Positions 1 through 61,775 of a stretch of DNA of 64,000 nucleotides are shown here, piece after piece. Where the stretch lies: NCBI GenBank assembly GCA_023053545.1, contig JAKZAN010000001.1:6344565-6408564 (forward strand), written 5' to 3'. Under the pieces are notes generated by a model. The model was not told where the DNA came from. It saw nothing but the letters and a program-made list of their open reading frames with translations, and ran no database searches. Both the position numbers and the translations under genes were made by a program. Within the stretch, counting starts at the first letter, position 1. Every line of letters begins with the position of its first letter. The stretch comes from Lepidurus packardi. Lineage: Eukaryota > Arthropoda > Branchiopoda > Notostraca > Triopsidae.

Positions 1-1472
1 GTGGTGTACCATAGAATGTGGTGTATCTTTGTTGACACAGGTTTCAGTCATACATGTTTGGTTACATAGAAACTTCTTGAAGGTATGTATAGAGGGCGGC
101 AAAGAAAGAGTGAAAGGAAAATGCGAATCGTAAAACGTGAAACGTGAGATATTTCAAAAGTTTAAAACCTTATTTGAATACATTAAATATTTCAGTTATT
201 AAATACCACAATAGGACTCTTGAGATTTATATTGGATTTAAGAATGTATGCAAATTAATTCACACCATATCCACATTCAAAGCGACCCTGGTACGAAGTG
301 CAACATGAATTTACCCAATGGTTTCCTAATATTTCGAAATTCGGTACAAGGTAGACTACGTCGTGATAGCTGGGTTTTTTTCGTTTATTTTATGTTTAAA
401 TTAACAGACAGAAATACGAAAATACGAAATGGGCGTCTCTCATGGGCTTTAGAACATGGCTTTCGCATTTTGTTATTTCGGTAATCAGCATTGTGTGTTT
501 CGCATCTTAAGTGCTACCCGCACAAACAACACGTCATGTAGAGTACCACGTACAGCGAGTTTGACAGAAAATTTTCTAATTTGTCTTATCCTGCTTTTGC
601 CACATTTCTTGTGAACCAAAGTGGGTTGAAGTTAAAGGTGCGTTTAGTTAAGTTCATGAACTTCACGGTTAAGGTTCAAGCCTTTCTGAAAGAATTTGAG
701 ATTTCCGTGGTCTCTGAAAAAATACAAAGGGGTAAGATAACTTTTTTGAACTTTTTGTATTCTGAAACTAATCCAAATACGTAAGGAAATTTTATTTCGA
801 AACCTCCCAAGACATGTTGAAACTGTAGGTGGTAAGTTGGTCCCACATTGTCATTTACAGTATGATTATGTAGGGCCTAGGGTATTTTTCGGCATCATGC
901 GGGGGTATTCTGGACATGAAGCTATTGGTACCTCCGCGACGACTGCTGGCGCTGCAGTTCCCTCCAAAGTGCAACATGAAGCTATTGAGTTGCACTCTGG
1001 ACGGGAATTGGTACCTCCGCGTCGGTTGGGTAGCGCTGTTGTTCCCATCCAAAAGTGCAATGAAAAAATGTTCGCGTGAGTGCGTTATACTGGTAACCAT
1101 TTTTGGAGGGGAACAGCATCGCTATAAAGTGACGCGGAGGTTACGGGGTACCAGTAGTAACTCGGGTTTTCTGGCAAGTGCTTTTGAATCGTATTTCGTA
1201 TATTGTTAGTTCCATTTGTAAGAATTCGCAAGTCTGATATAAACAAAACAATGGACGAAATTGCATACTGTAATAAGAAAGGCCTTTATTTTTTTGCCTG
1301 TAAAAGTGAAGCAAAGAGGTAGAATCATTAGCCAAAAACAATGCAAAGAAAGAGGGACTTTTAAACAAGGTGTTGGGCACAAAGCGCGTTATAAATAACA
1401 CTAAACTACAGGGGAAAAAATGAACACCGAATCCTGGTAATTGGGATTCCAAGTCATGTTTTTAACGGATAC
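1..1472. other. Left-edge non-coding stretch
   Basis: I see no convincing gene. It holds an imperfect direct duplication (912-1063, listed separately) and, at 1285-1290, an AATAAA signal in minus orientation that suits the MARVEL gene ending at 1473. Short ORFs here overlap each other on both strands and have no splice context. Confidence 0.5.
912..1063. repeat. Imperfect tandem duplication, about 60-bp units
   Basis: Two related units start near 912 and 1001. Both contain TTGGTACCTCCGCG, then a diverged GC-rich middle, then GTTCCC..CCAAA(A)GTGCAA. The offset is about 89 bp. Divergence is substantial, so this is an old duplication. A further GTGCAACATGAA match lies near 299. Confidence 0.6.
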
Positions 1473-2736
1473 TCAGCCTCGGTAACTGCGGATAGCTAGG
1501 AACGAGCTAATGAAGTACAGCACCGTGTTGACCAGACCCATACACTGCAAAAACATTAAGTTGATCATGAGTATCACAATGAAAATCGTCATCAAGCTAT
1601 AATCAGAGAAACTAGTGGTAACGGCCTGGTAGTCCGATGCATGCGTGCGCTCGCTACTCACCCCCGCGAACATTTTATCCCCATAACCGTATTCATGTTC
1701 TTGATAGCCAAGATTTCTGCTCGCAATCTCTCTTAGTAACAGAACAGAGGCGCAGAAGTACATGACAGTTGACGGGATAGAAAACACGGACACCTACAAG
1801 TTGGTGAGGTTTTGTGGTACGGAGGAATTGCACGTCAAAGGATGGGTTAGTTCCAAAATGTGGGCGCGGATGGTTTTAAAGGGCGTGGTGTTTTATCCAG
1901 ATTAAGGGTTTTTGTGTCGGGTAGTAATAGGAAAGGGTTCAACAAAAGAAACAAAGAAAAACGCAAGGAATTAGCGTGATGTAATCCACTCACCGCGGCT
2001 GCGAGGACGGCGTCGTAATAATGCAGGTAGTATTTGCTGGTGTGCTTGGTCAGGACGACCAAAAGGCAAATAGAAGCAGCCAAGTAGAGTAGAGAAGCCA
2101 CTCCGTGGTAAATGACTTCCTACATAAACCGACCAAAGGCAAAGTCATTTGGTAACCATTGGCTTTTTTTTGTGAAGGAGAATTGAGCAAAGGAACGGAA
2201 AGGCGGGAAGTTCTACTTCTAAGGAGCTAAAAATATACTTACGAAAGTAGTTTTAGAGATGATCGTAGCCGTCGAAATGGAGACCAAGCAGGAAACGAGC
2301 AGGCACGCCGTAGTAATCAGACAAGTGGAGGACACGATGAGAAAAAACAGCTCGGGGATGAAAAGTACAGACTGATACGAACTGTTGCTCTGGTAATATT
2401 GAATATAGTGACCGATCAAACCCACGACTACCGCGCCAACAATCTGCCGTGTTTAAAAGATGAGGTAGAATTAGTTATATTTGCTAATAGCTTTTTTGGT
2501 AATGAGTTTTCCATTCTTAATTGTATAGTTATAGTGAGCCGAGCAGGGTGCATCTTCCTCTTGACCTTTCAAAGCGTTCAGACTAACTTGTAAACAAACT
2601 AGCAGCTACCAAAACTTACCAATTGGGTCAATTTGAGTAATCCGGGAAAGGTTTGCAGGTATCCCGTATTGAGCAGGATAGCAGAGGTAGTGTGCACAGT
2701 CGTTGTAGTTCTCGTTACTGTCACGGCGTGGGACAT
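1473..2736 (-). CDS. MARVEL/CMTM-type four-pass membrane protein 1, alternative TM3 exons
   Basis: Exons (minus) 2736-2620, 2443-2243, 2119-1994, 1793-1662 and 1544-1473; every junction is phase 0. The protein starts MSHAVTVTRTTTT, a short cytosolic tail. GLLKLTQL marks the start of TM1, which continues as IVGAVVVGLIG. TM2 is ELFFLIVSSTCLITTACLL and TM4 is MGLVNTVLYFISSFLAI in the last exon. Exons 3 and 4 (42 and 44 residues) each encode a TM3 plus loop and resemble each other. The two paralogues in this window have only one such exon, so I infer mutually exclusive use, giving 171 or 173 aa with four TMs. Use of both would give five TMs and 215 aa. AATAAA lies at 1285-1290. MARVEL proteins act in membrane apposition and vesicle trafficking; the specific role is unknown. 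Confidence 0.7.
1662..1793 (-). other. Alternative TM3 exon B of MARVEL gene 1
   Basis: A 132-bp phase 0-0 exon with a TAG acceptor and a GTGAGT donor, encoding VSVFSIPSTVMYFCASVLLL and a loop ending KMFAG. Its length equals that of the single TM3 exons of the other two MARVEL genes in this window (132 bp each). The 117-bp intron after it has no in-frame stop. Confidence 0.65.
1994..2119 (-). other. Alternative TM3 exon A of MARVEL gene 1
   Basis: A 126-bp phase 0-0 exon with a TAG acceptor and a GTGAGT donor. It encodes EVIYHGVASLLYLAASICL and a loop ending in AVLAAA. It aligns without gaps over its first 14 residues with the exon at 1662-1793 and corresponds to the single TM3 exon of the neighbouring paralogue (4474-4605). 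Confidence 0.65.
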
Positions 2737-4317: not shown

Positions 4318-5264
4318 TTACTGGCTGGCATGTCGTTCACGGTGTAGCAGGAACGCTGCACTCCCATACACGATTGTGTTAAAGAGCCCGAAGCACTGGG
4401 GAGGAAAGAATCAAAGAGGGAATTTTAATAGTCAGGAAGGCATTTTAAAAATAAAGTTTTAAGTTTTACGTACCCCGGCAGCGATATTGGAATTTCTGTA
4501 GATGTCGTGTAAGGGAAAGCCGAAGGAATACTGTGACCAAACCGCTAATTGGGTTATGAACGCAGTAGTGTAGAGTACCGTCACTCCAGCGTTATACCAA
4601 AACTCCTATGATATGTAGATGGTATATGAGTCCATATGAGGACTTGTATTTTACTGTTTACCATTGACAGCCACGGGAGGGCCACAGGCGTTTGAATGCT
4701 GCTTTGTAAAGACAACAGGTGGATGAAGATCCAGAGAATGGTTATGATGAAAGACGTCACTACGACGAATAAAAACCATGATGTGCCAGGCAGTGTAGCT
4801 GGGGATGCACACGCCATGCAAATGATGGCTAAAAACTGGCAAAAAGTACGAATTTCAATGTGAAATGGTGAAGCGCAATGTTATGTCGAAACGAATCCTG
4901 CTCATAATGCAAGATTCTGAAGCGTGTGACGTTTATAGATCATGTTACCACTAGAAAAAGTGGCTAGCATGGGAAATTGTAGACTAAAATATAGAATAAA
5001 TCACGTTTGACTTACAACTTCGAACAGCTTGAGAATACCTGGCCAGGTATGGAAATAGCTCGGATTGAGGGTTACCACAACTGGGGCCGAATCTAGATTT
5101 GTGGTTGGCTGCACTGTATAGTTTGCTGCAGGAACATTCTGGTATTCTGGAACTTCCGGTACGTTTTTGATAATAACTGTATTAGGTCTAAGGTTGCCAT
5201 TGCTGTTCATGGACGGAATCTGATGTCTCACGGTAATAGTTGGAGGGTCAGTTTCTGACATCAT
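4318..5264 (-). CDS. MARVEL/CMTM-type four-pass membrane protein 2
   Basis: Exons (minus) 5264-5016, 4835-4662, 4605-4474 and 4395-4318, all phase 0, total 210 aa. The start is the first of two ATGs (MMSETD). A proline- and asparagine-rich cytosolic tail of about 65 residues leads to NPSYFHTWPGILKLFEV, the MARVEL entry motif. TM1 continues FLAIICMACAS. TM2 is WFLFVVVTSFIITILWIFI, TM3 is AGVTVLYTTAFITQLAVW and TM4 is CFGLFNTIVYGSAAFLL. It ends HRERHASQ. The exon grid matches the neighbour at 1.5-2.7 kb, so the two look like tandem duplicates. Function is inferred only as a membrane-trafficking or junction-type MARVEL protein. Confidence 0.75.
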
Positions 5265-15145: not shown

Positions 15146-18100
15146 ATGGCGGTGGCCATGGCGAGCGTCGTAGGAGTAATGGCCGGTGGCAGTAGCAGTC
15201 CAGAGGATGGTGGTCGTCGTGGGGAAGCTGCTAATTTAATCTCGCCGCCCTGTGCTCATAAGAATGGGAGTCAGCTGATCAAGATGAGCAGTGCCGCTGA
15301 TGGGTACTGTTGCTCTTGGTGTCCCTCTGGGTTTGGAGTGAAACAGTTGTGTCGACCGGGTGCCAATGGGCCCTCCGAAGACGGCTTGCGAACAGAAGAG
15401 TTGAGAGATGAGGAAGATAGCATGAAAAGGAGCGCCGCTTTTCAAGACACACAGTGCCAAGTTTGCCAGTCAGGTGTGACTTTCAGCGATGCACCGACTG
15501 CACATGCGCCCTGCCGGACCTGTTCGCGGTGTCCGGGTAAAAGTCGCCTCCGGAAAGCCTGCAATATCACCCATGACACTGAATGTGAATGCGAACGGGA
15601 TCATTACCAGGATCTACCCACGTCCAGTGATACTAACGTGAACATAATTTGCAAAGCATGCGATCTCTGTCCCCATGGCTGGGGAGCTGCCAGGCCCTGC
15701 TCACCTATGCACAATACCGTGTGCCGGAAATGTCCCCCCGGATCCTATAGTTCCTTATTAAGCGCCACCTTGGGCTGCGCCTTGTGTTCCGTATGTCATG
15801 AAGACCAAGTTACGCTTCATGAATGCACCCCAATTCAAGATACCGTCTGCGCAGGTAAGCAGAAACGATTTTTTTTACACAATGAGCCATTGAGGGGAAC
15901 CGATTACAAAAGCGGCACTTGTGCCTCTTAAAGTTGAACTTTGGTATAAGGACATATGGTAAGAAAAGCGAACAGGGACGTGCTTCTATGGAGCAGTGAG
16001 CAGTGATACACGGCCATACAGTAAGAAAGTAGAAATGGTTCCGAGTTGGCAGACCGTAAAGTCTGGGGGAATGTGACAGATTTGATTTTTATGGAGAGGA
16101 CAGAAATGAGGAAGATATTGCCCTCGCTTGTATTTCGAGAACGGGGAGGGGATAGAATGCCATCCTCTAGGAACGCAGGACGGCATGTGAGACAACATTT
16201 TTTGAAAAGATCGCGCTGGGATTGAAACTGAAACCGCTTCACAGAAAGAGGTCTTTGTCTCGGCCCCTGGTCGTCCTTTTTTTATTTCTATTAAAGGGCA
16301 ATAATTAGAAGAATTAACAGTTGAAATTTTGAAGGAACTTGTACTCACATTATCTTAAAAACCAACCGTGCAACTGCAAGTAATTGACAAATTTTTGTCA
16401 CAAGATGGCACTGATGTCATACCATTTCTCATTGTAATTTTATATAACTTTAAACAAGAAATTAAAAGAAATAGAAAGTGATAACTGAACAATTAGTTAT
16501 CTAAGTAATATATGATCAATAAACGCTACTGCGCCTGCTGCTTAAGATTTTGATAAATGATTTATTTAAGAATTTCGTAACTAGAACACAATGGAAAAAA
16601 TTAGTGAAACCGATATTAGAAATGAAAATCAGGAATAAAGTAAATTTGGACTATCCATGCATTACCGTCACAATATTGCCCATGCATTACCGTCACATTA
16701 CCCATGCATTACCGTAACATTACCGTTCATTATATTGCACAAAATGAAAATTTTCGGATCAAAATTTCCCATGCTGTAGCGCCAGTTATTAGCCTTTCAC
16801 GGGTTATCAAGAGGTTCGTAGCTTCGTTTCTAGGTCTACAAAGTTACACAGCTTGTGACCATGGTTTCTGTTTATTTCCGTGCTTAAAATCTTAAAAACA
16901 ACTCCAGAATGCCTTGTATCTACCGATACTTCCGTAACGTCAGGAAGCCACGTGATCCTTTTTTAGAATTGTATGTTTTCAATTATAATTTCCATTGTGA
17001 AAAGAAATATCCATAGGAATTAGATTTTTTATTATATTTCTTGTGTTTTGTTTGACTAGGAAGTTGTGCAACTGCTAGGAATTTTATAACGTAGATTCTT
17101 CATGATTTTGCTCCCCGTAAACTTTCTTCTTCTTCGTTTACTTCTTTGTATTAAAAAACAGAATGACTAATAATGGACCAATCATCCCAAGAGATCCTGG
17201 CCATCATGGAACGTTGTAGTTCTTTCATCAGGTTTCACATGCCGAGCTTCTTGGTGGGTTTCTCGTAATGTTTTCCTGACGTGAACAATTTCCGCTTAAA
17301 AGTGGGCAGAAAACACCGTGAGGCAAGATCAATCGTCATTCCTCATCCTATAGATTAAAGGTCTTTTACTACTTTAGCCAAGGGAGTTATCTCGTGACCG
17401 TAAGGCAGCCTATTGGTTTTCGGGGTGTGGGAAATACGAGACCTTATGTCTCAGGCTCAGGTGTGCCTACTGATTACCTGACAGGGCATTTTATCCCTCG
17501 CAGTTTTTTTATTATTATTATTATTATTGTAAACATTTTTTAGCCCCTCAATTTTGGAACGTTAAGCCAAAACGGGTCAGAGGCCTCCATTATTCATAAG
17601 TTCGTGTGGCCCCTTTTGTTTACCGTTTTAGTTCTCTGCATTGCAGTCGGTGCCAGTTTCCGCCATCACGTGTACCCGAGCACGTGTAAAAGCTAATACA
17701 AGTCTTGGTTTGGACCATAAATATAGCTGAGTATTATACATGAGCAAGAAGGAGATGCATTTTACTCGCTTCTATTTTGCTGGGAATCCAGATTGGGGCA
17801 TTCCCGACATTCTTTTTGCCTTCCATTGAATAGCTCTCGCAATCCATCATCATTCGCATCAGAAAGCCTCGGAAATTGAGGCTGTTTTGTTCGATATAAA
17901 AATGGGCCCAGTCGCGGTACAAAGGAGCTTTTATACACGAACAAGTTTTTGTACATGAAAGACAGGGGGATCCAGCCAAGTGTTTTCGTGAATAGAGCCA
18001 GCTCCGCAGCTCTTGAAGACGGGCAGGGACCGGTTCCCGTATTTTTTTATCATTATATTTATGGTATGGCATTTTTGTATACTAGACAAGCAACAAAAGG

Positions 18101-26531: not shown

Positions 26532-29500
26532 ATGGAAGACAGTTCCGAATTTTTTGAAGCAGAAGATGTGGTTGACAGCGTGTATTTACCAAAAGGTTCA
26601 CAGCTCCTCGGCAGGAAAGTTCTTCATAATGCACTAAAACAGCAGGCCAAAAGAAGGCGAAGAAACACGAGTCTTGCCTCTACAGGATCGTTGCATCCCC
26701 TTAGCAATGGTTCTGTATTAAAGCCACCTACTCTACTCATTTCTCCAGGTATGTGTTATTTCACAACTCCCGCTTACATTTTCCCACTAACGTTACATGT
26801 TTACTTTCAGCTTCCTTTGATTCCCTGTATCGGAATAATCCTCCTGAGACGTCTTCGTTCCATCACCATCACGCAGATAAACCTGTGAACGTGATTTCCG
26901 CCAAGCCCAAGCCCACAATGAAAGACATTCTCGATTCCATACCGGGCTTCAATGCTAAAACGAGAAAGCGGCCTTCAAGGAAACTGTCCACAGCGGCTCA
27001 GTTAAAAAGAACGAAAGAAGGCTGCATAGATCTCGAAACTCCGGATTCTATCTTGGTTGACGCCAACCTCAAGAGTCTTCTAGACCAGCACTCGTTTTCC
27101 TTGCTGCCCACTTTATACCAACAAAAACTTCTCCAGCTCTTGCCGGAAGTGGATCGCTTCCAGAGTCCTGACTCCATGTGGAGGTATATTCTAGTTTAAT
27201 CAAAATTAACCTCATGGAGCTAAAATAATTGAACGGTTTTATGTTCAGGGTCAGCAACTCGGGTTTGAACAACGAATTCTTTGCGCGGGCCTGCCAGAGA
27301 TGGCGCGATAGGTTGTCTAGTGGAGAGTTCACCCCCGAAATCCAGCAGAGAATGAAGGCCGAAGCTGAAAAGGACAAGTGTCGTTTAGATCCGTGGAAAG
27401 TAAAGAACTTTGAGCCCATCTGGGGCGTTCGTAGTGATTCGGCGGTGGATGTAGTTTCCTCGTCTCCTTCTCCTCCGTCTACTCCGAAAGTGAGCCTCAA
27501 GCGGAAACCCATGTGTCAGAACCCAGAAGTCTTTCATCCGTCAATGTCTAGCACCACCAATGCGAAAGAAAGTCTCGAAGACCCAGCCGAGGAGCCAAAA
27601 ACGCGAAAACGAAGCTCGAAAAGGAAAAAAGTGCGAACCAAGAAAGTCGAGGAATGGCCCGATGCTTCCGAAGACCCCCCTGCTTCTACATCGCCCGCGC
27701 CCACCGATTGGTTGTTACCACCCTCCGCCACAGACGATCTTCCGAAAAATCTTGACGAAACTGTGGAAAAAACGGCCACGGCCTCGTTGATCGAACCAGA
27801 ATCTGACTTGGTTTCCGAGCCAGCCGCCGTAGCTGTCCTTGAAGTCGAAGAGCGAGTCCCGCCCAGAGTAGAACCGCCCCCGATCCTCAATTTAGAGCCA
27901 GCCGACTTACCCCTCTCTATGCAAACAGACCTGGAGAGTCACTTTCAGGACGTCCAAGAGCTTATGGATATGGCTTCTTGCGAGTCATTAGATACCAATG
28001 AAGACAAGTCTGATCTTCCCGTACCTGCCTTACCTTGCGGCTTTTCATCGGAGGAGCCAGTCTCAACGCCCAACGATCAGCAGCCAGAGGGCATGGAATA
28101 CACACTCCAAAGTCCTGCTCGCGACTCCCAAACTACTTCGTCTGAGGATGGATCAGCAGATGGGACGGACCTGGCAACCCACGTTTGGGCCGAGTCCACA
28201 CCTGAGAGCGAAACAGACCTCTTATCCCAAGTGGCGGCCAATTTCCCGCCCTGCCCACCCGCATCTGATCTCGAAAGCAGACATGCCCCAGCCGTCACCT
28301 CAGAACCTTTAGTAGCGGTCGAGCCCACTCCGTTCGTCTCGGACACCACAGTTAGCTTTCCCAGTGAACATGCGACAGAAACTATCACAACGTATTCAAC
28401 TTCCCATGTTGTAACTCCTGTTTCCACTAACACTCCTATAGTGGTCGGCTCTTCCGTTAACTCCCCACCCACAACGCTAACATTAGCCTTACCTATAGGT
28501 CTCCCTTTACCTATCACCCTTCCTTTGCCTCCTGTAACCGCATTACTCGTATCCGAGTCGCATAAAAGGGAAGACTTGACGGTAGGGATGACACCTATCC
28601 CGTCACCCGCTCCATTTGTCCATATTCCCAGGCCTCCCAGCTTGGGAATGGTCCCTCTAGGGGTGGTCGCTAGTAAGGCAGAAACCAACGTCCGACACCA
28701 ACCTACTGTTTCTGGGATGTCGTTGCCCAAGGCTGCTATTGCCCCCAAACTTCTCCCGCGCACACCACCCAGCTTGTCGGCATCGAGCCCTTCTCGCATT
28801 GTGCGGGCTTCGCCCAAAGTCCCGCCCGGAGTGGTCAACTTGGAACGGTCTTATCAAATTTGCCAGGCGGTTATCAATAATAGTCCCAATTGTCATCAGC
28901 TGAAAGCACAATTAAAGCCGCCATCGGCGTTTAAATCGTCGGCTTCCAGCACGACGCCTGCTACCATCAGTACCGTAACGACCAGCACGTACCCCGCGAA
29001 CGATGAGGCTCGGAATAGCAGGTTTGTTGCCCATGGGCGACCTTCTTCAGCTGGTATAGTAGCTACGGGGGTCCAGTCGTACCCTCACCGGCCGGCTAGT
29101 ATTGGTAACCTGGGGCATGTCGTATCCGTCGCGCAAAACCGGCCGTCTTCCGCTGGCCCGTTAACAACGCCACTGTGTCGACCCAATTCGACCGATGCCA
29201 CGCTGATGAGGCGGACGCCGACACCCACAGCGGCTGCAGCGGTGGCGCCCAGTACGATGCCTCGTCCGGCGTTGGCGATGAATACTCAAGCTGCGGCTGC
29301 CACCCCAGAAACGACGATCCCGATAGCCAACAACACACCCGAAGACAGTAAAATGAACATTATCCTGCTCCAACCTTGCGCCCCACCCGCAACAGCCGCC
29401 ACAGGGCCAACCCTTTCTTTAAAACCTGCATTACCACCGGTCCGTTTCATGACTTCGCAAGGGATGGAGCAGCACGGGTCTATCGAGCTGCACAACGGTC

Positions 29501-31275
29501 ACCAGACTCGCATGCCCATGTTGAGCTCGAATATGCAGGAAGGTAGTTTCCATTTGGTCCAATTACGGTCTACGGATGGAAACGGTCAGGAAGCGTTCGC
29601 GCTGATTCCCACAGTGAAGAAAGAAGATTCTTTTAGCACGACGACCACTGTCATAAACCCGTATGTTAATAGCAACACATCCACAACAACTCCTCAGCAG
29701 CAACATTGGGGCAACGGCAACGGGGTTATCAATGGTACGTCTAACCATCAAGGAACGACGCCGTTGCACCAGCAAGTGAACATGAATCCCAGTTCAAACG
29801 TAAACACGTATTCTATGACGACACAAGCAATGGGGAATCAGTACAATAACGCGTATACCAATACCCTATACCAAGCCAAAGGTCATCTTAACTCCCAGTA
29901 CGACCCCACGGGCGCCTATGTCCGGCAAACGAATCCCATGTATCAAACCTGCCAACCATACCCTCAACAACAACAGCAGTCCCATATTACCAACCAGTCC
30001 CGGCCTGTCACCATGGACATGACCATGTACGGCAATAACGTCAATCAGTGGCAGCAGCAGCAAATGACACCCCAACCGCAGCCTATGCAGCAGCAGCAAA
30101 TGACGCCCCAACCGCAGCCTATGCAGCAGCAGCAAATACAGCAGCAGCAGGCTTGTATGCAACAGTTGGCGTATGCGAGTTCCCAAACACCCAGTGCGAT
30201 TTTCCGAAATCCCATGCCCATGCAGCAACGCATGATGACCAGTTATCCGACACCGCAAGTGCAAATGATACCGGTCAATCGCGGTAATGTTGTCAACATG
30301 AACATGGCTTCGGCGGAGAGTAATGGGATGGGAACCGCATGCGGGAATTACTCTGTACCGGTTAGCCAACAACAGCAGCAACAAGTGGGCAGAATTACCA
30401 CTATGAATACCTTGATGAACGGGACTGCATTACGTCCTACCCATACGGCAATTCAACCCAACTTGAACGTCAGTTATGGCAATTCTACCGGTTTCATGGC
30501 CTGCAATCAAACGCTGATGCGGGCGGCGATGAATCGACCGTTTGTGACCCAGCTACCTCAGCAGCAGCAGTCGACGCCTACGCCTACTCAAGCTATCCAA
30601 TTACGACCCATTCAGAATAATCTCAGCCACGCACCGATGCTCCGACCCGTGACACTTAGCAATCTGCCGGATACTACCGTCACGCCCATCAAATGGGTTC
30701 AACAGAACAACGTGAATACCATCAACCAGCAAGTAGATTACACGGCGAACGTTTCCACGCTGGCCATTCAGCAACAGCGCTTGCAGCAACAGCAGCAGCC
30801 CATCGTTTGTAGTTACGGTCAACAAATGGTTACCAGTCAGTATACCCCCATCAATGCTGTAGCAGGGCAGCCTCAGTTTTGTAGTAGTAATGCCGTGGCT
30901 GTGACCTCCGTGGCAAACAATAGTGGTATGGGCGTGGCAAGTACAGCAGTATCCCAAGAGGGACCGTTAACGCCAGCCAGTTTTAGTCCCCAAAGCCAAT
31001 CAAATTCGTTAGATTTTCCGTCGGCGATGGAGATGATGACAAGTAATGCTATTATTGTTATCTCGCAAGCCAACCATACGGAATCCGATAGCTCGACGTC
31101 CACTCCGAATTCGGCCTCAGACAGTGTTATGAACGTTAAAACAGGAAACAGTGGAGGCGGGACCAGCAGTTGTTCTTGCAATATGAAAGGAATGATTATG
31201 TGCACCAAGTGTGGAGCCTTTTGTCATGATGATTGTATTGGACCTTCCAATCTTTGTTTTACCTGCATCATATGA
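26532..31275 (+). CDS. Asx: Additional sex combs-like protein (ASXL)
   Basis: Exons 26532-26748, 26811-27183 and 27249-31275, 1538 aa. After an N-terminal basic stretch (LHNALKQQAKRRRR) lies the DEUBAD/ASXH domain, split across exons 2-3: ETPDSILVDANLKSLLDQHS, LLPEVDR and SGLNNEFFARACQRWRDRLS. This domain activates BAP1/Calypso, which removes ubiquitin from histone H2A Lys119. A very long disordered segment follows, rich in Ser/Pro/Thr then Gln/Asn (poly-Gln near 30030-30150). The protein ends in a PHD-type zinc finger (CSCNMKGMIMCTKCGAFCHD to CFTCII). The HARE-HTH domain usual at the N-terminus is not visible, so either a 5' exon is missing or it is lost. It acts in the nucleus in the Polycomb deubiquitinase complex. 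Confidence 0.93.
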
Positions 31276-34087: not shown

Positions 34088-35716
34088 TTAGGCAGCATAC
34101 AAGGCTTGTTGCTGCAGTCGAGCCTGATAGGTCGAAACCATATTTGGACCTCGACCATCATCCCAAGAGACGGAATTCCGCACCAACGGTCGCAGAGGTA
34201 GAGATTCGCGTTTTCCACGGACTCGATTGCGCTCCGTATTGAGGCTCGAGTTCGATGAAGGCATGGGCATTGGATTTGGCAAGATAGGGAAGGGAAGCGG
34301 CGCGTTGCGTAGGAAAGGGCCAATTTCGTGTTCGTCTAAACTCTCTTCATCTTCCGGAGGCTCTGGCCAAGGTTGGAGTCGACAAGTGCACATGGAAATG
34401 AAGAGAGCAAGAAAACCGCTCGTAAAGCAGAATGCCTGCAAGAGAAAGAAGCTTTAGTTATTGAAGCGGGAATCGAGGAAGGAGCCAAGGGGAGGGAGAG
34501 ATAAAGAGAAGAAGCGGATACGATTAGGAGGCAGGACGACGGGAGGCTGAAAGGCAAATGAAGCTAACGTGCTTACCAGAGCAGAAAACATGGAGTTATA
34601 AGTCCTTGACGATAGTTTGTTTTCCACTGCATATTCCTGTAACGCATCAACAAGCATTGAAGCACCTGTAACGAGTCCTACTGCCAGGCCGAGATAGAGT
34701 AACGAGTGCTAGGGAGAATTAATAGGTTTGAATATTAATTTATCGTTTTGTAATATTTTTTTTTTTTTGAGATTAGGAAAAGACAAACTTACTATAGTAT
34801 TCCAAGAAATAGGTAAAAGGGGCTGCAATTGCGTTACTTCAGCGAAAAGGAGTGCGATAGTTACGAGAATCGTAAATACGGTCATGAAGAGGACGAACCG
34901 AATTCGGTCTGCGAAAGGCAGTGACATCCAAGGTCCTGATGACCAAGGTGTAGCTAAAACACACGCGAAGGAAACGGCAGCAAAGATCTGCGAAAAAGTA
35001 AAGGCACTCAAGTTCGAGGACGCGCTAACAATAGACTAGCGGTACTAAGGAATTCGAAATAAAAAAAAGAACAGAAACCAAGTTCGACTACGACATCCAA
35101 CACTTAGAGGGTGAACGTAGGTAGAAGATAAAATAGAACTGATAAAATGATAGGTTTGTATAAAAATAATTTATTGGGGCATAACATGATACGGTTTACA
35201 TGCGTGACCGTAAACGGAAACGTGCACTGAAGCTAGCAATAAAAACATTTAGATCGACAGCTATACAAGAATGGGAGAAAATAATTTAAAGTGTACACTT
35301 AGAAGAATCCTCAAGATTCCCATTCGAGAAAGTAAGGGTTCTTTGATACAAAATACAGCCACTCCATCGAACACAGGATCAGGGCACGCTTCTGCTGTCA
35401 TTTCAGCTCTGTAAACTGCATGTGAGTCCCAAGATAACACCGACATCATCGAAGGAACACCAGCAGTCCCTGAATCGTGAGTTCCATTGACTAAATGTCT
35501 ACTACCATCAATTTCAAAGTCCTGAATATCTTCAGTGTGTAGGTTAATGGGTTCCAGGTGCTTAATTTCATCCAGAAGTTCTTCCATTTCATCCTTGGAA
35601 CACAGATCTGATACAGAGTGCAAATATCGTTTGCTACGTTCCGAAGATTCACTCTTCATATTCACCATGACGCTGCAGTTAGTGTAATTCACGTGATTTT
35701 CTTTAAGAGCCGACAT
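34088..35716 (-). CDS. MARVEL-type four-pass membrane protein 3, long tails
   Basis: Proposed exons (minus) 35716-35297, 34987-34793, 34708-34577 and 34435-34088, all phase 0, 364 aa. The long acidic N-terminal tail (from MSALKENHVNYTNC) ends in SRMGILRILLS, which lines up residue for residue with GILKLFEV and GLLKLTQL of the other two MARVEL genes, at the same exon edge. TM1 is IFAAVSFACVLA, TM2 is FVLFMTVFTILVTIALLFA, TM3 sits in a 132-bp exon (HSLLYLGLAVGLVTGASML) and TM4 is AFCFTSGFLALFISMCTC. A C-terminal proline-rich tail of about 95 residues follows. The exon 1 donor (AGT|GTACAC) is non-consensus, and an AATAAA at about 35170-35175 inside intron 1 could end a short alternative transcript of 151 codons. 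Exons 2-4 are firmer than exon 1. Confidence 0.6.
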
Positions 35717-41505: not shown

Positions 41506-43816
<2,311 letters not shown>

Positions 43817-50372: not shown

Positions 50373-50784
50373 GTAATCCTCATTCTCACTTGCCCTTCCT
50401 GCCCCAACACGTCAGTGAAAGGAAGAAAAATGTAATTAAAAAATATTAAAAACCACAAGGAACTTGTAATCAATCGGTGTCATATTTATCGCCTAAAACT
50501 TCAGCAAGGAACTACAATTTGCGCACGGATTTCTGCGCTGTCTGCAATTTAGGATAAGAAAAACGGCACATGTATCCCGTTTAACGTCGGAGATATTTAC
50601 ATGTATTGTGCCATTTTTCACCTAATTAGCCTGCCCGTATAGACTAATCTTAAGCGTGTTATGCACGCGTAGATAATAGGCATACCATGATTGCTAACTT
50701 ATGGTCCACAGGTTGTGCAAACCCTAAAGAACCGGTGGCCTAAGACCAACGATAATACACGGTGATTCTGGATAACAAGCAAAA
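50373..50784. other. Upstream region of the GPCR gene
   Basis: About 0.4 kb, no exon seen. ATG at 50785 is the first in frame. Confidence 0.5.
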
Positions 50785-53700
50785 ATGGAACCTGTGGATC
50801 CGAACATTATGCTGCCCACGCATTCCGAGACTTCTTTGTCCGTTCTAGACCCTGTTTCGATTGAAACTCTTGTCAATTACAGTATTTCGCTCTCGTCACC
50901 AACAATCCCAGCTCCAAGAAGTACTCGAGATGAAAGCCTAGCAACGGCAGAGATTGCTACCTTGGCAGTCATATTCCTTCTTGCTTTGTCCAGCAATGTT
51001 TTCATGCTCGTGGCCATTTGGCGGCAACGTCAATATCGTCCGCTGTCACGAATGTACTTTTTCATGTTACATCTGAGTGTGGCAGATGTTCTGGTTGCCA
51101 TTTTCAACATCCTACCCCAATTACTCTGGGACATAACCTATCGTTTCCTCGGTGGAGACTTGCTTTGCCGATTCGTCAAATACAGTCAAATTATGCCCTT
51201 GTATCTTTCCACCTACTTACTCATGTTCATGGCCTTGGATCGGTACCGCGCCGTCTGCTCTGCTTCCAGCAATTTGCATTGGAATTCCCTCAAAGTTGCT
51301 AAAATGATGGTGGCAATCGCCTGGTTGTTGTCGGTGCTCCTAGCCATTCCCCAGGCTGTCATTTTCGGAGAACAATATGTCAATCCAGACGGCGTCAGTA
51401 CCGAAACCGACTGTTGGGTACGGTTCATTGAACCATGGGGAGCTAAAGCATACGTTACGTGGTTTGTCATATCCATCTTTGCACTTCCTTTGGTAGTTAT
51501 TGGATTCTCCTACGGAGCTATTTCCCATCGCCTCTGGCGCTACAGTCAAGAAGCCCGGCGCTCGGAAAAGGCTCATATGAGCGGAGCAGCTCATCAGCGC
51601 AGAACTGGAGTTTCTGCAGGATCACCCTCATCATGGCCGACCTCTCAACGGTGGCTTCGAACGAGCAGGGTCTTGAATAGGCTTTGCATTAGCAGGCCCA
51701 AACGACCTAACCACAAGCGCAATTCCTGTGGCGATTTTGAGGAAGGCTTGCAACCCACCACGGGACACGTACTTGAAGATTCCCAGTCCAGCTCATCGAG
51801 TAGCAAACCTGCAGCAGAATCTCACCCCTTACGAGAAAGTGACACGTCGTCCACTAGCAAATCATCCAGTAACAAGAAGATTAAGATAGAACCCTTTCCC
51901 TTGAGGCGATCCAACAGTAATCGCATAACTCGAGCCAAAATCAAAACCATACAGCTCACCCTGCTAGTCGTCATCTGCTTCGTTGTTTGCTGGGCTCCGT
52001 TTTGCATCACTCAGCTTATCTTAGTCTACGATCCTCCTACCAACTGTAAGTTTGTTTTCGTTTACCAACATTTACTTTCCCAACCTTTTTACACTTTTTC
52101 CGCTTTCTATCGACAAAACAGTACCCAAAACAGAAGAAACCTGTATTGTACCACGTATTCATTCGCTGGTCGATTCAGTGTCCTACAACTATACACTAGG
52201 TCAGGGGCTATCTAAAATTGCTTATTTTCACTACATGATGCACATATTATTATGCTACGCTAAAGCAAATTAAAATAGATCAAATTAGTCAATCTTTTTT
52301 ATAGTTTGCAGTCAAAGAAATTAAAGTTAGAAATTTTCCATGAAAGCTTGTCCCTTTTCCTACTCGGACGCTTCTAGTGCTTCAACCACGGTCAAGGCCT
52401 CTCCATCAAAAGTACGCGACGTCTCCGCCACGCTGATGGTGGCCAAAATCAGCATGACGATTAAGGTGATGCCTAAGGAAATCATGGTGGAAGCCGGTCA
52501 GGAAGCCGAATTCACAGAAAAGCCAGTAAAGCTCCACTTGGGGAGCGGTCACCCGGGGCCTAATTAATAAACAAAGAAAATAAGTTTAACCAGACGAAAA
52601 AAGTAAACTTGAAACTTGCTGAGTGTTGCCTACCTGGACCTTGTCCAAAACCAGCGCAATCCAAGACCTGACTCCCAGTAAATGATGATCCAATCACACT
52701 TCTCTTGCACTCGATTAAGCTTAGGTACTCAAAGTCACTTAAAACTGGCGTGGTAAAAATCGGGGCCTCCAGGGGCCCTAGAACTTCCCGAAAAATAGTA
52801 TAACACGCCAAATTGTTACACAAAATGTTTGGCTCGTAAATCAACACACTCTTCGCAATTCCTTCACGTGTAGTCCCTTCGGAATGCGTGGTTGCGAGTT
52901 ATGGAAGCACCAAAACAACACTAGCTTGTAATAAGCAGGATACGAGCTGGCCTGTAATTGCTCTTTATATAAATAAAATGTGTTTGCGGAAGCAAAAACC
53001 GAGAAAACTGAAACTAACTTGTAACGAAAAAGCCAGTTTGGTTTCAAAACTACAACGAAAGCAAATAAATCTGTCGGCTTCAGTATAGCAAGACAAACTG
53101 GACAGTTTTGACTGGAAAACCTCGGTGGTGTGCTTTTATATAGGCCCTGGCTGTAAACTTCCAGAATATTCCAGATACAATTTTCACTGTAACCACTAGC
53201 TAAGGCACATCTAACTTTCATGGAAAACTGAAAGCTTCAATACGAAAAGAGACTCTCGAGCCCATCCAAATGCGTTATAGCTCAATTCTCTTATCTACCT
53301 TACCGTTGACTCACTAAGCCCAGCAACAAACCTCCCAAACCTCCAGAGAAGGGCCCTTTCCAGTATCGGACCACAGCAAGGTCGAGTGTAACAAACAAGG
53401 TCAAAAGAGGGGGGAAATTGCCCCATAGAGATTTTTGGAAAACATTCAAAGGAACCCAAGTTCCCAGAAACTGGAAGAGACAAATGTTAAAACTCAGCTA
53501 CTTCGCATGAAAAATTTTGAATGGGATTCATTAACTAGGTTAATGTGAGACGCAGTAATAAAAACGGATGCAATTGCAAGCCGGGACTATGGCAACTCAT
53601 CGATAGCAACTCACCGAGAACTGAACAAAAACTGCATTGGGCCTTAAATCGACATAAAGTACCAGTCTATGAAGTGATATATAGACTGCGTGTGAGGCGC

Positions 53701-56695: not shown

Positions 56696-58855
56696 ATGCT
56701 TTGGTTCATTCTCCTGACGGTTGTTACTGTATTCCAGGTTAGTTTTGTTAACTTATTTGTATTTATCTCCTCCCCGTCCCGAAAAATTCAGTGAGAAATA
56801 GTATTATTTCACAGAACCATGTTTGGGGATGGCAGCTCGACAACGTGAGATACGAGAAGGCTCTTTTCTTAGGGGACCCCTGTACTTCATCCGGGGCGTG
56901 TCATCGGGGCGTATCTGAAAGTCAATGCGCCGCGGGTTTATGTACTTGCCCCCCATATCACGTGGCCTATAACGCTACGGCCTGTTTACGAAGTAAGGGA
57001 GGTATTAAAAGGGCCCCTTAAACTAGAATTCATGATGATTCTTAAAGCTTCCTTGCTGGGATTTGAGTGCCTGGTCGACGCTCAATGCTCGGTGCGTGTG
57101 CAGGGCAGCGGTTGCATCGACAGGTTGTGCCAATGTAGCCAAAACCTGGTGCCGCACCGTAGACACCTTTGTTTGCCTCGTAAGTTTCCGAACAGGTTTG
57201 ATCTCAGATATTGCGAAAGCTTTAGAGCGGCGTAGAAATGGCAACCACAGGTTGGATAACCGAAAGTGTGTATTATTGCTAGCCGTGATGCCAGGGGATA
57301 AATGTTACAGCACGGAGCAATGCCTGGGAGGAGATAAACAATCCTATTGTAAATACATCGTGCCGAAAGTGTATGGTCGCTGTATATGCCAGTCTACAAC
57401 ACAGCATGTGGGCAAAACATGCCTGAAACTTCAACCAAGTATGTGGAATTTTGACTTTCCGCCTAATTCTCCCTATTTCTTTACTGCTTCCTCTAACGTT
57501 TCGCATTTTAGCACTTTTCCCACTTTCCACGCTTTAAAAACATCTTTCCCGGATTTACTTTATAGCACTCGGAACTCCTTGCACCCATACCAAGGAATGC
57601 TCCCATAATACGCCTGCTTCCACATGTAGAACGGGCCTTTGCCAATGCGAGATCGGGTCTGTTCCTTCGATTGACGGCTTGCGTTGTATAAGAGCCTTCA
57701 AAGGTCAGGGCAGACTTTGCCAGAACCCATTATTTGACGGCTGCGGAAAGTGCCAACTTACTTTACTTCTATACTTTAGGCATTGAAGCTGAGATAAAGC
57801 TCAGGCAAGTTACTCTTGGCTTGCCTTGCACGTCGTGGGCACAATGTCAAGCAGCGGATCCTAACGCAGCATGTATTCATGGCATATGTTCCTGTACAGT
57901 TGAGCAACCCATATGTGAAGGGACTACACCAGGCTGCTTCAACACCACCTATCAAGTAATGTTATTATTCGGTGCAATAAAACTAGGGAATTATACCTTT
58001 ACCTGGGTGTCACAGTGCCGATCTTCTGGCCAATGCATAAGTCCGGCGTTTGTTTGCAATGGGATTAGCGACTGTGAAGACGGATCCGACGAAGAATGCA
58101 TGGGGTTATCATGTCCCCCTCAAGGTTTTCGCTGCGACAAAGGCCAGCCTGCATGTATTAGTCAAGCTTGGGTTTGCGATGGGAAACCCCATTGTTCGGA
58201 TGGCTCTGACGAACAATACTGCCATGTGCGTCCAGGATCAGGTAACGTTACCCACTCAGTTATTTAATTCTTTTTCAACACGTCTTCAAGACTTTCCTAC
58301 TGTACATCATTTTTTCTATTTGTGTATAATAACTCATAAATCTCCAACAAAGAGGTAAAGTTAATGAGAAGTGCCAAGTGGACACTGCATGTTGTCTTTT
58401 TTATTCGCTATTATGCTTGATCGTAAACATCTTTTTGATGAAAAATTTCCCGAAATTGCCCATCTAATTAACTAGGGAACTGCTTACACTACTTTAGATC
58501 ATACGGAATGTCCTGGAAACGGGTTTAAATGCGGAAACGGCACTTGTTTACCCGAGCACGTGTACTGTAATGGAATCATAGATTGCGGCGGTGGCGCTGC
58601 AAACGATGAGCCAGAAAAAGCGTGTAAGAGGGAATTTCAAACGGTAGAGGAATGTCCTTTCCGATGCAAAAATGGTCGATGCCGATCTTCTTCGATTCTT
58701 TGTAGCGGTGTTAACGGATGTGGAGATAATTCTGACGAAGAATTTTGTCGCGTTTGTCGTAAGTACAACAAACTTGACAAATGCGTCACTGGCTTAAAAT
58801 GATTAAAAACGTCGGTTTCCTAGGTTGCCCCGCTATAAGTCAATGGAGGTTTTGA
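56696..58855 (+). CDS. Secreted EB-module and LDL-receptor class A protein
   Basis: Nine exons: 56696-56737, 56815-56992, 57048-57179, 57283-57438, 57566-57703, 57780-57955, 58016-58241, 58498-58758 and 58824-58855, total 446 aa. A signal peptide (MLWFILLTVVTVF) leads into about five cysteine-rich EB-like modules, one per exon (for example CAAGLCTCPP, CIDRLCQCS, CRTGLCQCEIG, CIHGICSCTVE). Four LDLa repeats follow: CNGISDCEDGSDEEC, CDGKPHCSDGSDEQYC, CNGIIDCGGGAANDEPEKAC and CSGVNGCGDNSDEEFC. The acidic calcium-cage residues are intact in repeats 1, 2 and 4 and altered in repeat 3. A 60-bp intron (57956-58015) is also open in frame; removing it restores canonical Cys-x6-Cys spacing of LDLa 1. 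No membrane segment follows, so it is probably secreted. EB modules are typical of arthropods and nematodes. Confidence 0.85.
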
Positions 58856-59509: not shown

Positions 59510-61775
59510 ATGTTCGTAAAAACAACAATGTGTTCACCCTCACATGGTTCGGAAGAATCCGGTTACCATTCCAGTCGCCATAGCCCTCTAAACTGCCATT
59601 TCGAGACACTTCTTGAACTCGGGGAAAACTGCCAAAACTACGCGAGTGAATTGGGGACGGGTATGCCTGACCTAGAACAACCATTTCACGATTTTGCTGT
59701 TCCGGCTCAAGGGGTTCAAACCAACGCTGAAACTGATTCCAATTTCAAACTGTACACTGAGCTAAACGCACCGGTAAGCATGGCTAGTGAATCATCCATG
59801 GAACCTTTGGATCTCATCTCTCGGGCCCAACAAGTGAGGGAAAGCAAGAAAAATACATGTTTAAACCTTTTTACTTATTACTGCCTAGGAGGAGCAAGGG
59901 AATCTTGAAAGTATGCCCTACTTGCTTCACACGTATCCTCTGACACCGGATTGTCAAGTCGCCAATACTTACAATTCTACGTCAGAACCTGTCGCGTTCA
60001 ATGAAAATCAACCAGCTGAAGAATCCAGCTCCTGTTTTCCCGGTACGACAAGTAGCTCTTGGTATTGTGGACCTACTATGCCTGCTGCCCAAATTTACTA
60101 CGTCGATCAAATGCCCTCTTCGCCGTTCCCTGGCCAGTCTACTTCTTTGGAACATTACGAATCAGATCCTTTGAGGCTTTGGCCTTACGATAACAAGCAA
60201 AGTGTCCCAGGATTACAGGCGTTAAATGTTACTGCTCTTGACGAGCTGGACTGCACCAATTCAATTACGAACAGGGTACCAAAGAAGGGAAGTACTACTT
60301 TTTTGAGGAAACCATCTTGCGTCATTTTGGTGAGCAATACGTCTCCAGAAACAATGTACAGTTACATTAACTAGTTATTGGTTCAGTAGTTATACCCTTG
60401 TCTAATCTTTTTCGTAGTTCAACGGCAAGTGAGTCTGCTTCCATAAATTTTCCAACGTCTTCTAGGAAAGGCACAAAGAGGAAGCGGGGAGTCTCGGGGG
60501 AGAAGTGTGCCGTGTGCAGTGATTTATCTTCGGGGTCACACTACGGAGTCCAAGTGTGCGAGGGTTGTAAAGTAAGCAGCCATAACTTTTTCTATATGAA
60601 GTTGTAGATTGTTAACCTGTAGCTCTTGACAGAACTTTTTTAAGCGATCCTTGACGCGACTACATAAAGGCATGCAGGCTCCGTACATGTGCTTGCAAGT
60701 ACATGCTTGCACCATTACTCCCCAAACACGCAATCAATGCAAAGCATGCCGTCTTCATAAGTGCTTAGCTATGGGAATGACAAGCGACAGTAAGTAGAGT
60801 CTTTATGAATATATGTTTGGTTATTAAAACGCTAAAAAATTTCGTAATTAGTAGGTACCTATGAAAAAACTCACGCATTTACACGGAAATGCTTGTCTAA
60901 ACCTTTGGATCTTCTCACTCAACTTATCACTGCCCATTCAGCTAGTTTCATTCCAGTACCTTCTGTAATGCTTTCAAGAGTAAGTAAGAGTTGTAACTAG
61001 TCTCTTTAATGATTATCCTACAATACTCTTTTTTCACAGCACGCTAACCTAAACAAATGCCAATCGTCTATGCACTTCCCCCCAGAGTGCGATTTGTCTT
61101 ACCAAGGCGCTAAAAACGTACAACACTATGCTGAAAGGCTGCCGGTTTTTACGGGCCTACCTCGGTCTATCCAAGAGATCTTACTGAAACACAATATGGT
61201 TGACATCATGGTAAGTTATTGTCTGCCATAAAAGGGCTCTTATAGTTGAGGATTTGCTCATCCTTTTATAAAAAGAAATGTAGATAGATCGCTGCAATTA
61301 GATAGCTTAAAGTTACACAAACGGTTCTTATCTTTCATTGTTGCAGGTATTGCGAACCGCCTCACGTTATTGCCCAGAACGCTCAAGTTATGTGTTTCCA
61401 ATGGACCGCGAAATGACAGAAACCATGTTCAAGCAATACCCGCTGGGCCTCCGAATCAATGATCGTGTACGTAATCTAGGCCGTTCGATGTTCAGTATGG
61501 ATATTGAAGACACAGAAATGAGTTTTTTATCCGTTCTTTTGCTGATTACACCCTACACTCCTGATCTGGAACACTTGGAACAAGTGGTCGTGGCGGAGGT
61601 ATCTAAAAAGTTGCTGCGAGCTTTCAAACGTCATATTAAAGCGCGTTGGCCGGTTAAATCTAATCTCCATTACAAGTTGTTGTGTTTACTGCCCGAAATT
61701 AAAGCCACCGCTTTATGTGTTCCCAAAACTTGTGCTTTAACCAATGATCTTCTTAACGAGTCTCTTACCGTATGA
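59510..61775 (+). CDS. Divergent nuclear receptor, NR1-type ligand-binding domain
   Basis: Exons 59510-59833, 59889-60355, 60418-60571, 60633-60789, 60855-60979, 61040-61210 and 61347-61775, 608 aa. The 3' edge of exon 2 is ambiguous; the AAT|GTACAG donor keeps frame. A disordered A/B region of about 280 residues precedes a nuclear-localisation-like RKGTKRKR and the C4 zinc fingers: CAVCSDLSSGSHYGVQVCEG, CKNFFKRSL, and finger 2 (CLQVHACTITPQTRNQCKAC) with RLHKCLAMGM. The P-box is EGCKN instead of EGCKG, and the link between fingers is about five residues longer than usual. The LBD has the AF-1 cofactor-groove signature (LPVFTGLPRSIQEILLK, then MVLRTASRYC) of the NR1 family and a C-terminal LLNESL like AF-2. 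A ligand-regulated transcription factor is inferred. Confidence 0.88.

Follow-up and report, generated by a model that had tools for sequence, protein, structure and literature searches.

Human MAL is described in the available excerpt of PMC8145151 as a gene of four exons, in which exons II, III and IV encode 56, 42 and 24 amino acids, respectively, and in which the splice junctions all lie between codons. According to the same excerpt, minor human transcripts skip exons II and/or III, and the splice forms are designated MAL-a to MAL-d (PMC8145151). Mutually exclusive exons have also been surveyed more broadly, and the accessible portion of one such survey considers cassette use of paired transmembrane exons highly unlikely while recording that exclusivity is lacking in many cases of similar neighbouring exons (PMC5740500). 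For the Drosophila X chromosome, the accessible portion of a second study reports homologous neighbouring exons of similar length and the same frame that are not mutually exclusive in 6 of 1705 genes, and gives 15% of the self score as a setting of its published predictor of mutually exclusive exons (PMC3228551). No case of mutually exclusive exons in the MARVEL family appeared among the matches listed in a search of the titles and abstract starts of the open-access literature, a scope outside which subscription papers mostly fall; nor did one appear in the titles and abstract starts listed for Daphnia. Tandem exon duplication is otherwise well documented in membrane proteins, and such a case would therefore be moderately surprising.

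The window, the whole stretch of DNA analysed here, comprises 64,000 nucleotides of Lepidurus packardi from a genome assembly of 108.6 Mb in 344 contigs. Translation and splice sites revealed a MAL/MARVEL-type gene on its minus strand, with coding sequence running from 2736 to 1474, all coding boundaries in phase 0 and introns of the GT-AG type. The features of this gene and of its neighbouring paralogue, with membrane segments numbered TM1 to TM4, are as follows.

2620..2736, minus strand: coding part of exon 1, 39 amino acids, from the start codon to the start of TM1 (from translation and splice sites)
2243..2443, minus strand: exon 2, carrying TM1, the first loop and TM2; 67 amino acids, phase 0-0
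1994..2119, minus strand: exon A, carrying TM3 version 1 and the second outer loop; 42 amino acids, 126 bp, phase 0-0
1662..1793, minus strand: exon B, carrying TM3 version 2 and the second outer loop; 44 amino acids, 132 bp, phase 0-0
1545..1661, minus strand: 117-bp intron between exon B and the last exon, stop-free in the reading frame; a possible retained (exitron-like) segment
1474..1544, minus strand: last exon, carrying TM4, the tail and the stop codon; 23 amino acids
1285..1290, minus strand: AATAAA poly(A) signal, 3′ of the last exon
4318..5261, minus strand: neighbouring paralogue, read as four exons (5261-5016, 4835-4662, 4605-4474 and 4395-4318), only one of which encodes TM3; MARVEL score 49.4 bits

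The donors of the gene are ordinary (GTAAGT or GTGAGT), and exons A and B, separated by an intron of 200 bp, are each flanked by a TAG acceptor and a GTGAGT donor. These neighbouring internal exons are of near-equal length, share phase 0-0 and are both bounded by GT-AG introns. Each encodes one hydrophobic segment and a polar tail, with 19-residue Kyte-Doolittle peaks of 2.31 for A and 1.78 for B. The loop encoded by exon A, an exon that contains three histidine residues, has a net charge of +1, and that encoded by exon B a net charge of −1. The description in the first-pass annotation of two adjacent phase 0-0 exons of 126 and 132 bp, each encoding a third membrane segment and its loop, is thus borne out by splice sites, frame and hydropathy. 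A 5′ UTR intron is likely to lie upstream of the coding part of exon 1, where an acceptor-like CAG ends at 2740. A scan of the minus strand from 2740 to 1200 for AATAAA or ATTAAA returned only the signal at 1285..1290, so that the A-B interval contains no such signal. An imperfect inverted repeat was also observed a short way downstream of the gene (window 930-962 and 1109-1141), with 33-nt arms that are 73% complementary and 146 nt apart; this is possibly the remnant of a small mobile element.

From exon 2 onward, the exons of this gene encode 67, 42 (A) or 44 (B), and 23 amino acids, and those of the neighbouring paralogue 58, 44 and 25. The phase-0 plan with a 42-amino acid TM3 exon that is described for human MAL is found at this locus, where A encodes 42 amino acids and B 44. 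As far as the excerpted account of human MAL allows comparison, the two genes are alike in having a short exon 1, an exon for TM1 and TM2, a 42-amino acid exon III, phase-0 junctions and a short last exon (24 amino acids there, 23 here), and also in the alternative use of exon III, which is a feature of MAL and is predicted here (PMC8145151). In contrast to the single exon III of human MAL, which is skipped in minor forms, exon III is present here in duplicate and would be swapped. Because the length of 42 amino acids is shared with exon III of human MAL, a gene whose junctions are likewise all in phase 0, the locus looks like a MAL-type gene in which exon III has been duplicated in tandem.

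The neighbouring paralogue lies upstream on the same strand and ends 1.6 kb from the start codon of the duplicated-exon gene. The two genes share their exon plan and boundaries, and the TM3 exon of the paralogue aligns with A and B, its exon for TM4 being the counterpart of the last exon (47% over 19 amino acids); similarity also extends to exon 1 (E 2.4e-4). The paralogue differs in having one TM3 exon and a longer N-terminus. Given that the introns flanking its TM3 exon are only 56 and 78 bp, no second TM3 exon is possible there.

When sequences were compared with class-preserving shuffles, the A-B alignment score was reached in 2/1000 and 1/1000 cases, which upholds the earlier proposal that exons A and B align with each other. 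The score for alignment to the neighbour's TM3 exon at 4605-4474 was reached in 0/1000 shuffles for A and 3/1000 for B. Accordingly, the further claim that the pair aligns with the TM3 exons of two paralogues stands for 4474-4605, but it is poorly supported for 34577-34708: this exon (34708-34577), from a gene at 34 kb in the window, matched B at chance level (652/1000 class-preserving and 638/2000 plain shuffles as good) and A weakly (151/1000 and 31/2000, respectively). The 34-kb gene has the length and phase of its TM3 exon in common with the A/B pair, and it is mainly on these that the claimed alignment rests. Its MARVEL score of 31.0 bits, below the 32.8 bits of the curated cut-off of Pfam PF01284 (MARVEL), was obtained with part of the protein, from which the first exons are absent.

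The whole protein encoded by the duplicated-exon gene scored 52.3 MARVEL bits with A, 43.3 with B and 29.0 with neither exon, so that both the A form and the B form score as MARVEL domain proteins (PF01284). Exons 1 and 2 alone scored 22.0 bits and covered profile positions 4-64. When each exon was shuffled with its hydrophobic/polar pattern kept (n = 5), the scores fell to 22.0-34.0 bits for A, with one shuffle above the cut-off, and to 20.5-26.8 bits for B. Chance open frames can be rejected on the basis of this loss of MARVEL gain and of the finding of no comparable exon in 10 shuffled single-strand windows; an open frame by itself was by no means rare in shuffles (432/2000 for A and 175/2000 for B). 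When the 64-kb window was scanned mechanically for short phase-0 exons that carry a membrane segment, the minus strand yielded three matches (A, B and a portion of the TM1-2 exon), the plus strand none and the 10 shuffles, one strand each, also none. The scan demands a GTRAGT donor, and the TM3 exons of both paralogues were consequently missed.

The slot that each exon fills was explored by exchange between the two genes. In the TM3 slot of the neighbour, the MARVEL score was 40.3 bits with the slot empty and 49.4 with the native exon, and insertion of B raised it to 48.8 bits and that of A to 57.4. Exon B therefore gained 14.3 bits in the TM3 slot of its own gene and 8.5 bits in that of the neighbouring paralogue, and in the TM4 slot only 2.1 bits in its own gene (43.9 to 46.0) and 0.2 bits in the neighbour (41.2 to 41.4). 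Since B gains in TM3 slots and almost nothing in TM4 slots, these tests support the interpretation of A and B as alternatives for the third membrane segment, as the first-pass annotation had proposed, and the exon plan of MAL in the excerpt of PMC8145151 points the same way. Exon B also resembles TM4, the alignment score being reached in 0/1000 shuffles for the TM4 of its own gene and 1/1000 for that of the neighbour. An origin of B as a duplicate of TM4, to which it aligns as well as to TM3, is nevertheless not favoured in view of the gains of 2.1 and 0.2 bits in TM4 slots against 14.3 and 8.5 bits in TM3 slots.

Four hydropathy peaks were present in each single-exon form and five when A and B were both included, with the sidedness of the segments being a prediction. 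On grounds of topology and precedent, transcripts of this gene probably take A or B and not both. Precedent in favour comes from the alternatively used exon III of MAL (PMC8145151), from the survey's view of paired transmembrane exons (PMC5740500) and from the rarity of non-exclusive look-alikes on the Drosophila X chromosome (PMC3228551); against it stand the non-exclusive similar exons noted in the same survey and the fact that MAL skips exon III and does not swap it. Topology argues for exclusivity because inclusion of both exons would give five passes and leave a basic C-terminus outside. The earlier assertion that double inclusion gives five passes and so breaks the MARVEL topology is in line with the five hydropathy peaks, and its argument is that made in the accessible portion of PMC5740500; it is not absolute, given that minor transcripts of human MAL skip exons II and/or III in the excerpted account (PMC8145151).

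In the proposed switch, exon III, encoding the third helix and the second outer loop, would have been duplicated in tandem long ago, and the transcript would join exon 2 to either A or B and then to the last exon to yield two four-pass proteins. The predicted isoforms would have the same TM1, TM2, TM4 and tails and would differ in the third helix and the outer loop, the latter being rich in His and Tyr with net +1 in the A form and rich in Glu, Gly and Tyr with net −1 in the B form. Such a swap may tune helix packing or the preference for lipids or partners. The choice between A and B would fall to trans-acting splicing factors, because no lock by frame, by U2/U12 intron type or by intron pairing is visible. 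Both exons are multiples of three, and double inclusion or double skipping would keep the frame. Pairing between the introns was no better than in shuffles (153/200, 138/200 and 154/200 as good or better), and docking or selector pairing of introns was discarded for want of a signal above these shuffles. Among branch-point consensus matches, the best (CTAAC at 1847) is situated 146 nt from the donor of A, which makes a steric block of joint inclusion unlikely; a poorer match, CTAAT at 1971, is 22 nt from this donor. The motif GCATG, which we take to be a possible RBFOX pentamer, occurs at 1644-1640, just 3′ of exon B. It was given no weight as a regulatory signal, the window containing 109 copies of GCATG against 108.3 expected.

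The pair resembles known clusters of mutually exclusive exons in that the exons are adjacent, homologous, of near-equal length and of the same phase, and encode one and the same membrane-protein element. It differs from them in being read from sequence alone, in having no frame lock and in an A-B similarity that does not reach the published predictor's setting, as given in the accessible portion of PMC3228551. Depending on the treatment of end gaps, the A-B alignment score amounts to 9.9-14.2% of the self score of A and 9.2-13.2% of that of B, less than the 15% used there.

Codon identity between A and B was 15/41, 23/41 and 9/41 at positions 1, 2 and 3, respectively. Third positions are at chance, and second positions are above it, which is partly explained by shared hydrophobicity. 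Judged by this comparison the exon duplication is old, since silent positions are saturated. Global alignment gave z values of 6.8 for A with the neighbour's TM3 exon, 4.6 for A with B and 4.1 for B with the neighbour's TM3 exon. Since the closest relationship of A is to the TM3 exon of the neighbour and not to B, either the exon duplication would date from roughly the time of the local gene duplication, or evolution would have been faster in B. The persistence in B of an open frame and of both splice sites argues for its being in use.

These data also bear on the view, considered unlikely, that TM3 is constitutively supplied by A, with B as a duplicate that is decaying or seldom used and that enters transcripts at a low level or as a cassette exon, its exclusivity not being regulated. 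Consistent with it, A is the better MARVEL TM3 (52.3 versus 43.3 bits), has the 42-amino acid length that the excerpt of PMC8145151 gives for MAL exon III and is closer than B to the TM3 of the neighbour (z 6.8 versus 4.1). Synonymous codon preference is likewise present in A and absent in B, with 5/2000 and 984/2000 random recodings, respectively, being as good, in a test that is weak in that scores near or below zero were likewise obtained for exon 1 and for exons 1 and 3 of the neighbour. A neutral copy, however, should have lost both the splice sites, which in B are intact despite silent-site saturation, and the MARVEL fit, by which B exceeds the best of its five shuffles by 16.5 bits.

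The splicing repertoire may be larger than a choice between A and B, although this is distinctly improbable. From exon B to the stop codon there is a single open frame of 106 codons that runs through the 117-bp intron (1545-1661). Were this intron retained in frame as an exitron-like segment, exon B, the 39 additional amino acids and the last exon would form one terminal exon of 320 bp, with a hydrophobic stretch added. The 39 amino acids have a hydrophobic end that abuts TM4, and four hydropathy peaks were present with B and the intron and five with A, B and the intron. Besides being in frame and free of stops, the intron has a coding-like GC content by codon position (0.33/0.33/0.64). Among 5000 dinucleotide shuffles of its core, 21 were as GC3-rich and 3 were both open and GC3-rich, its codon preference was reached by 3/2000 recodings, and its hydrophobic peak of 2.05 was reached in 41/3637 open shuffles. 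Against retention, openness alone was seen in 907/5000 shuffles of the core, the intron was picked out post hoc among several, and the neighbour's intron at the equivalent place contains stops. Moreover, retention lowers the MARVEL score of the B form from 43.3 to 33.4 bits, and the Pfam matches of B, the 117-bp segment and the last exon alone were no better than E 0.16. It is conceivable from the sequence, but very doubtful, that A, B and the in-frame intron constitute a modular transmembrane splicing switch, whose combinations would change the number or placing of passes as well as the third helix, so that the MAL-type topology is altered by splicing.

Joint inclusion of A and B, which would produce a constitutive five-pass protein or a re-entrant segment and no switch, appears very unlikely. 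Both exons being multiples of three, the joint form is in frame, and with five hydropathy peaks it scored 55.1 MARVEL bits, the highest whole-protein score and above either single form, though in two stretches. The resemblance of B to TM4 as well as to TM3 might also be accommodated in such a protein. The 2.1 bits that B adds as TM4 after A nevertheless compare poorly with the 8.4 bits added by the real TM4, the fifth pass would place the arginine-bearing C-terminus (net +2) outside, and the cassette use implied is what the accessible part of the survey holds to be highly unlikely (PMC5740500). Two overlapping genes, or A as a last exon, are not favoured, in that read-through of A past its donor extends 48 codons to a stop in the A-B intron but finds no AATAAA or ATTAAA there, and neither is a separate B gene, the 200-bp A-B intron containing no match to a hydrophobic TM1-2 exon.

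If exclusive use of A and B is correct, splicing, and not gene duplication, would be the means by which a MAL-type proteolipid can exchange the third helix together with the outer loop. The two isoforms would then provide a clean natural pair for asking what role TM3 and its outer loop play.

Protein searches of the whole genome returned this gene, its neighbour and one weak match that contains stops (E 0.53, C1:5787846-5787980). Because these searches scored few candidates and missed the 34-kb gene, further MAL-type genes may exist in the genome. A tblastn search of the 10 kb downstream (L012) gave no MARVEL-like match better than E 0.5, and a PDB search found no relative, returning only three chains of one unrelated enzyme at E 0.5. 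The Pfam MARVEL search of the genome returned one gene (L013, from about 4565, plus strand), which we take to be synaptogyrin-like; the genes of the window, which match only exon by exon, were missed. The TM3 exon boundaries of the synaptogyrin-like gene differ from those of the MAL-type genes.

Elsewhere in the window, TNF-receptor-type cysteine-rich repeats were observed on the plus strand at 15149-15928 (TNFR_c6, three stretches, 97 bits), together with an Asx homology domain (ASXH) at 26705-27196 (57 bits), just downstream of which is a long open frame at 27229-31272. The plus strand also encodes a rhodopsin-family receptor in one open frame at 50782-52209 (7tm_1, 152 bits), two LDL-receptor class A repeats at 57692-58264 (64 bits) and a partial nuclear receptor ligand-binding domain at 61311-61772 (25.6 bits). 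On the minus strand, an M17 aminopeptidase N-terminal domain extends over two open frames at 42992-43716 (52.1 bits, and 25.6 bits, the latter below the cut-off). At the level of the genome, at least 150 Chitin_bind_4 matches were present, many of them in arrays (150 scored of 266 candidates). Mitochondrial-like COX1 fragments that are rich in TGA were numerous in contigs C1, C2, C4, C5, C6, C21 and C38, which suggests frequent mitochondrial insertions in these contigs. Both the Chitin_bind_4 matches and the TGA-rich COX1 copies point to the genome of an arthropod. Unlike the TGA-rich copies, COX1 at C52:160321-161757, C214:60865-62079 and C43:162713-164005 is contained in long stop-free open frames, and the three contigs concerned probably represent bacterial DNA included in the assembly.
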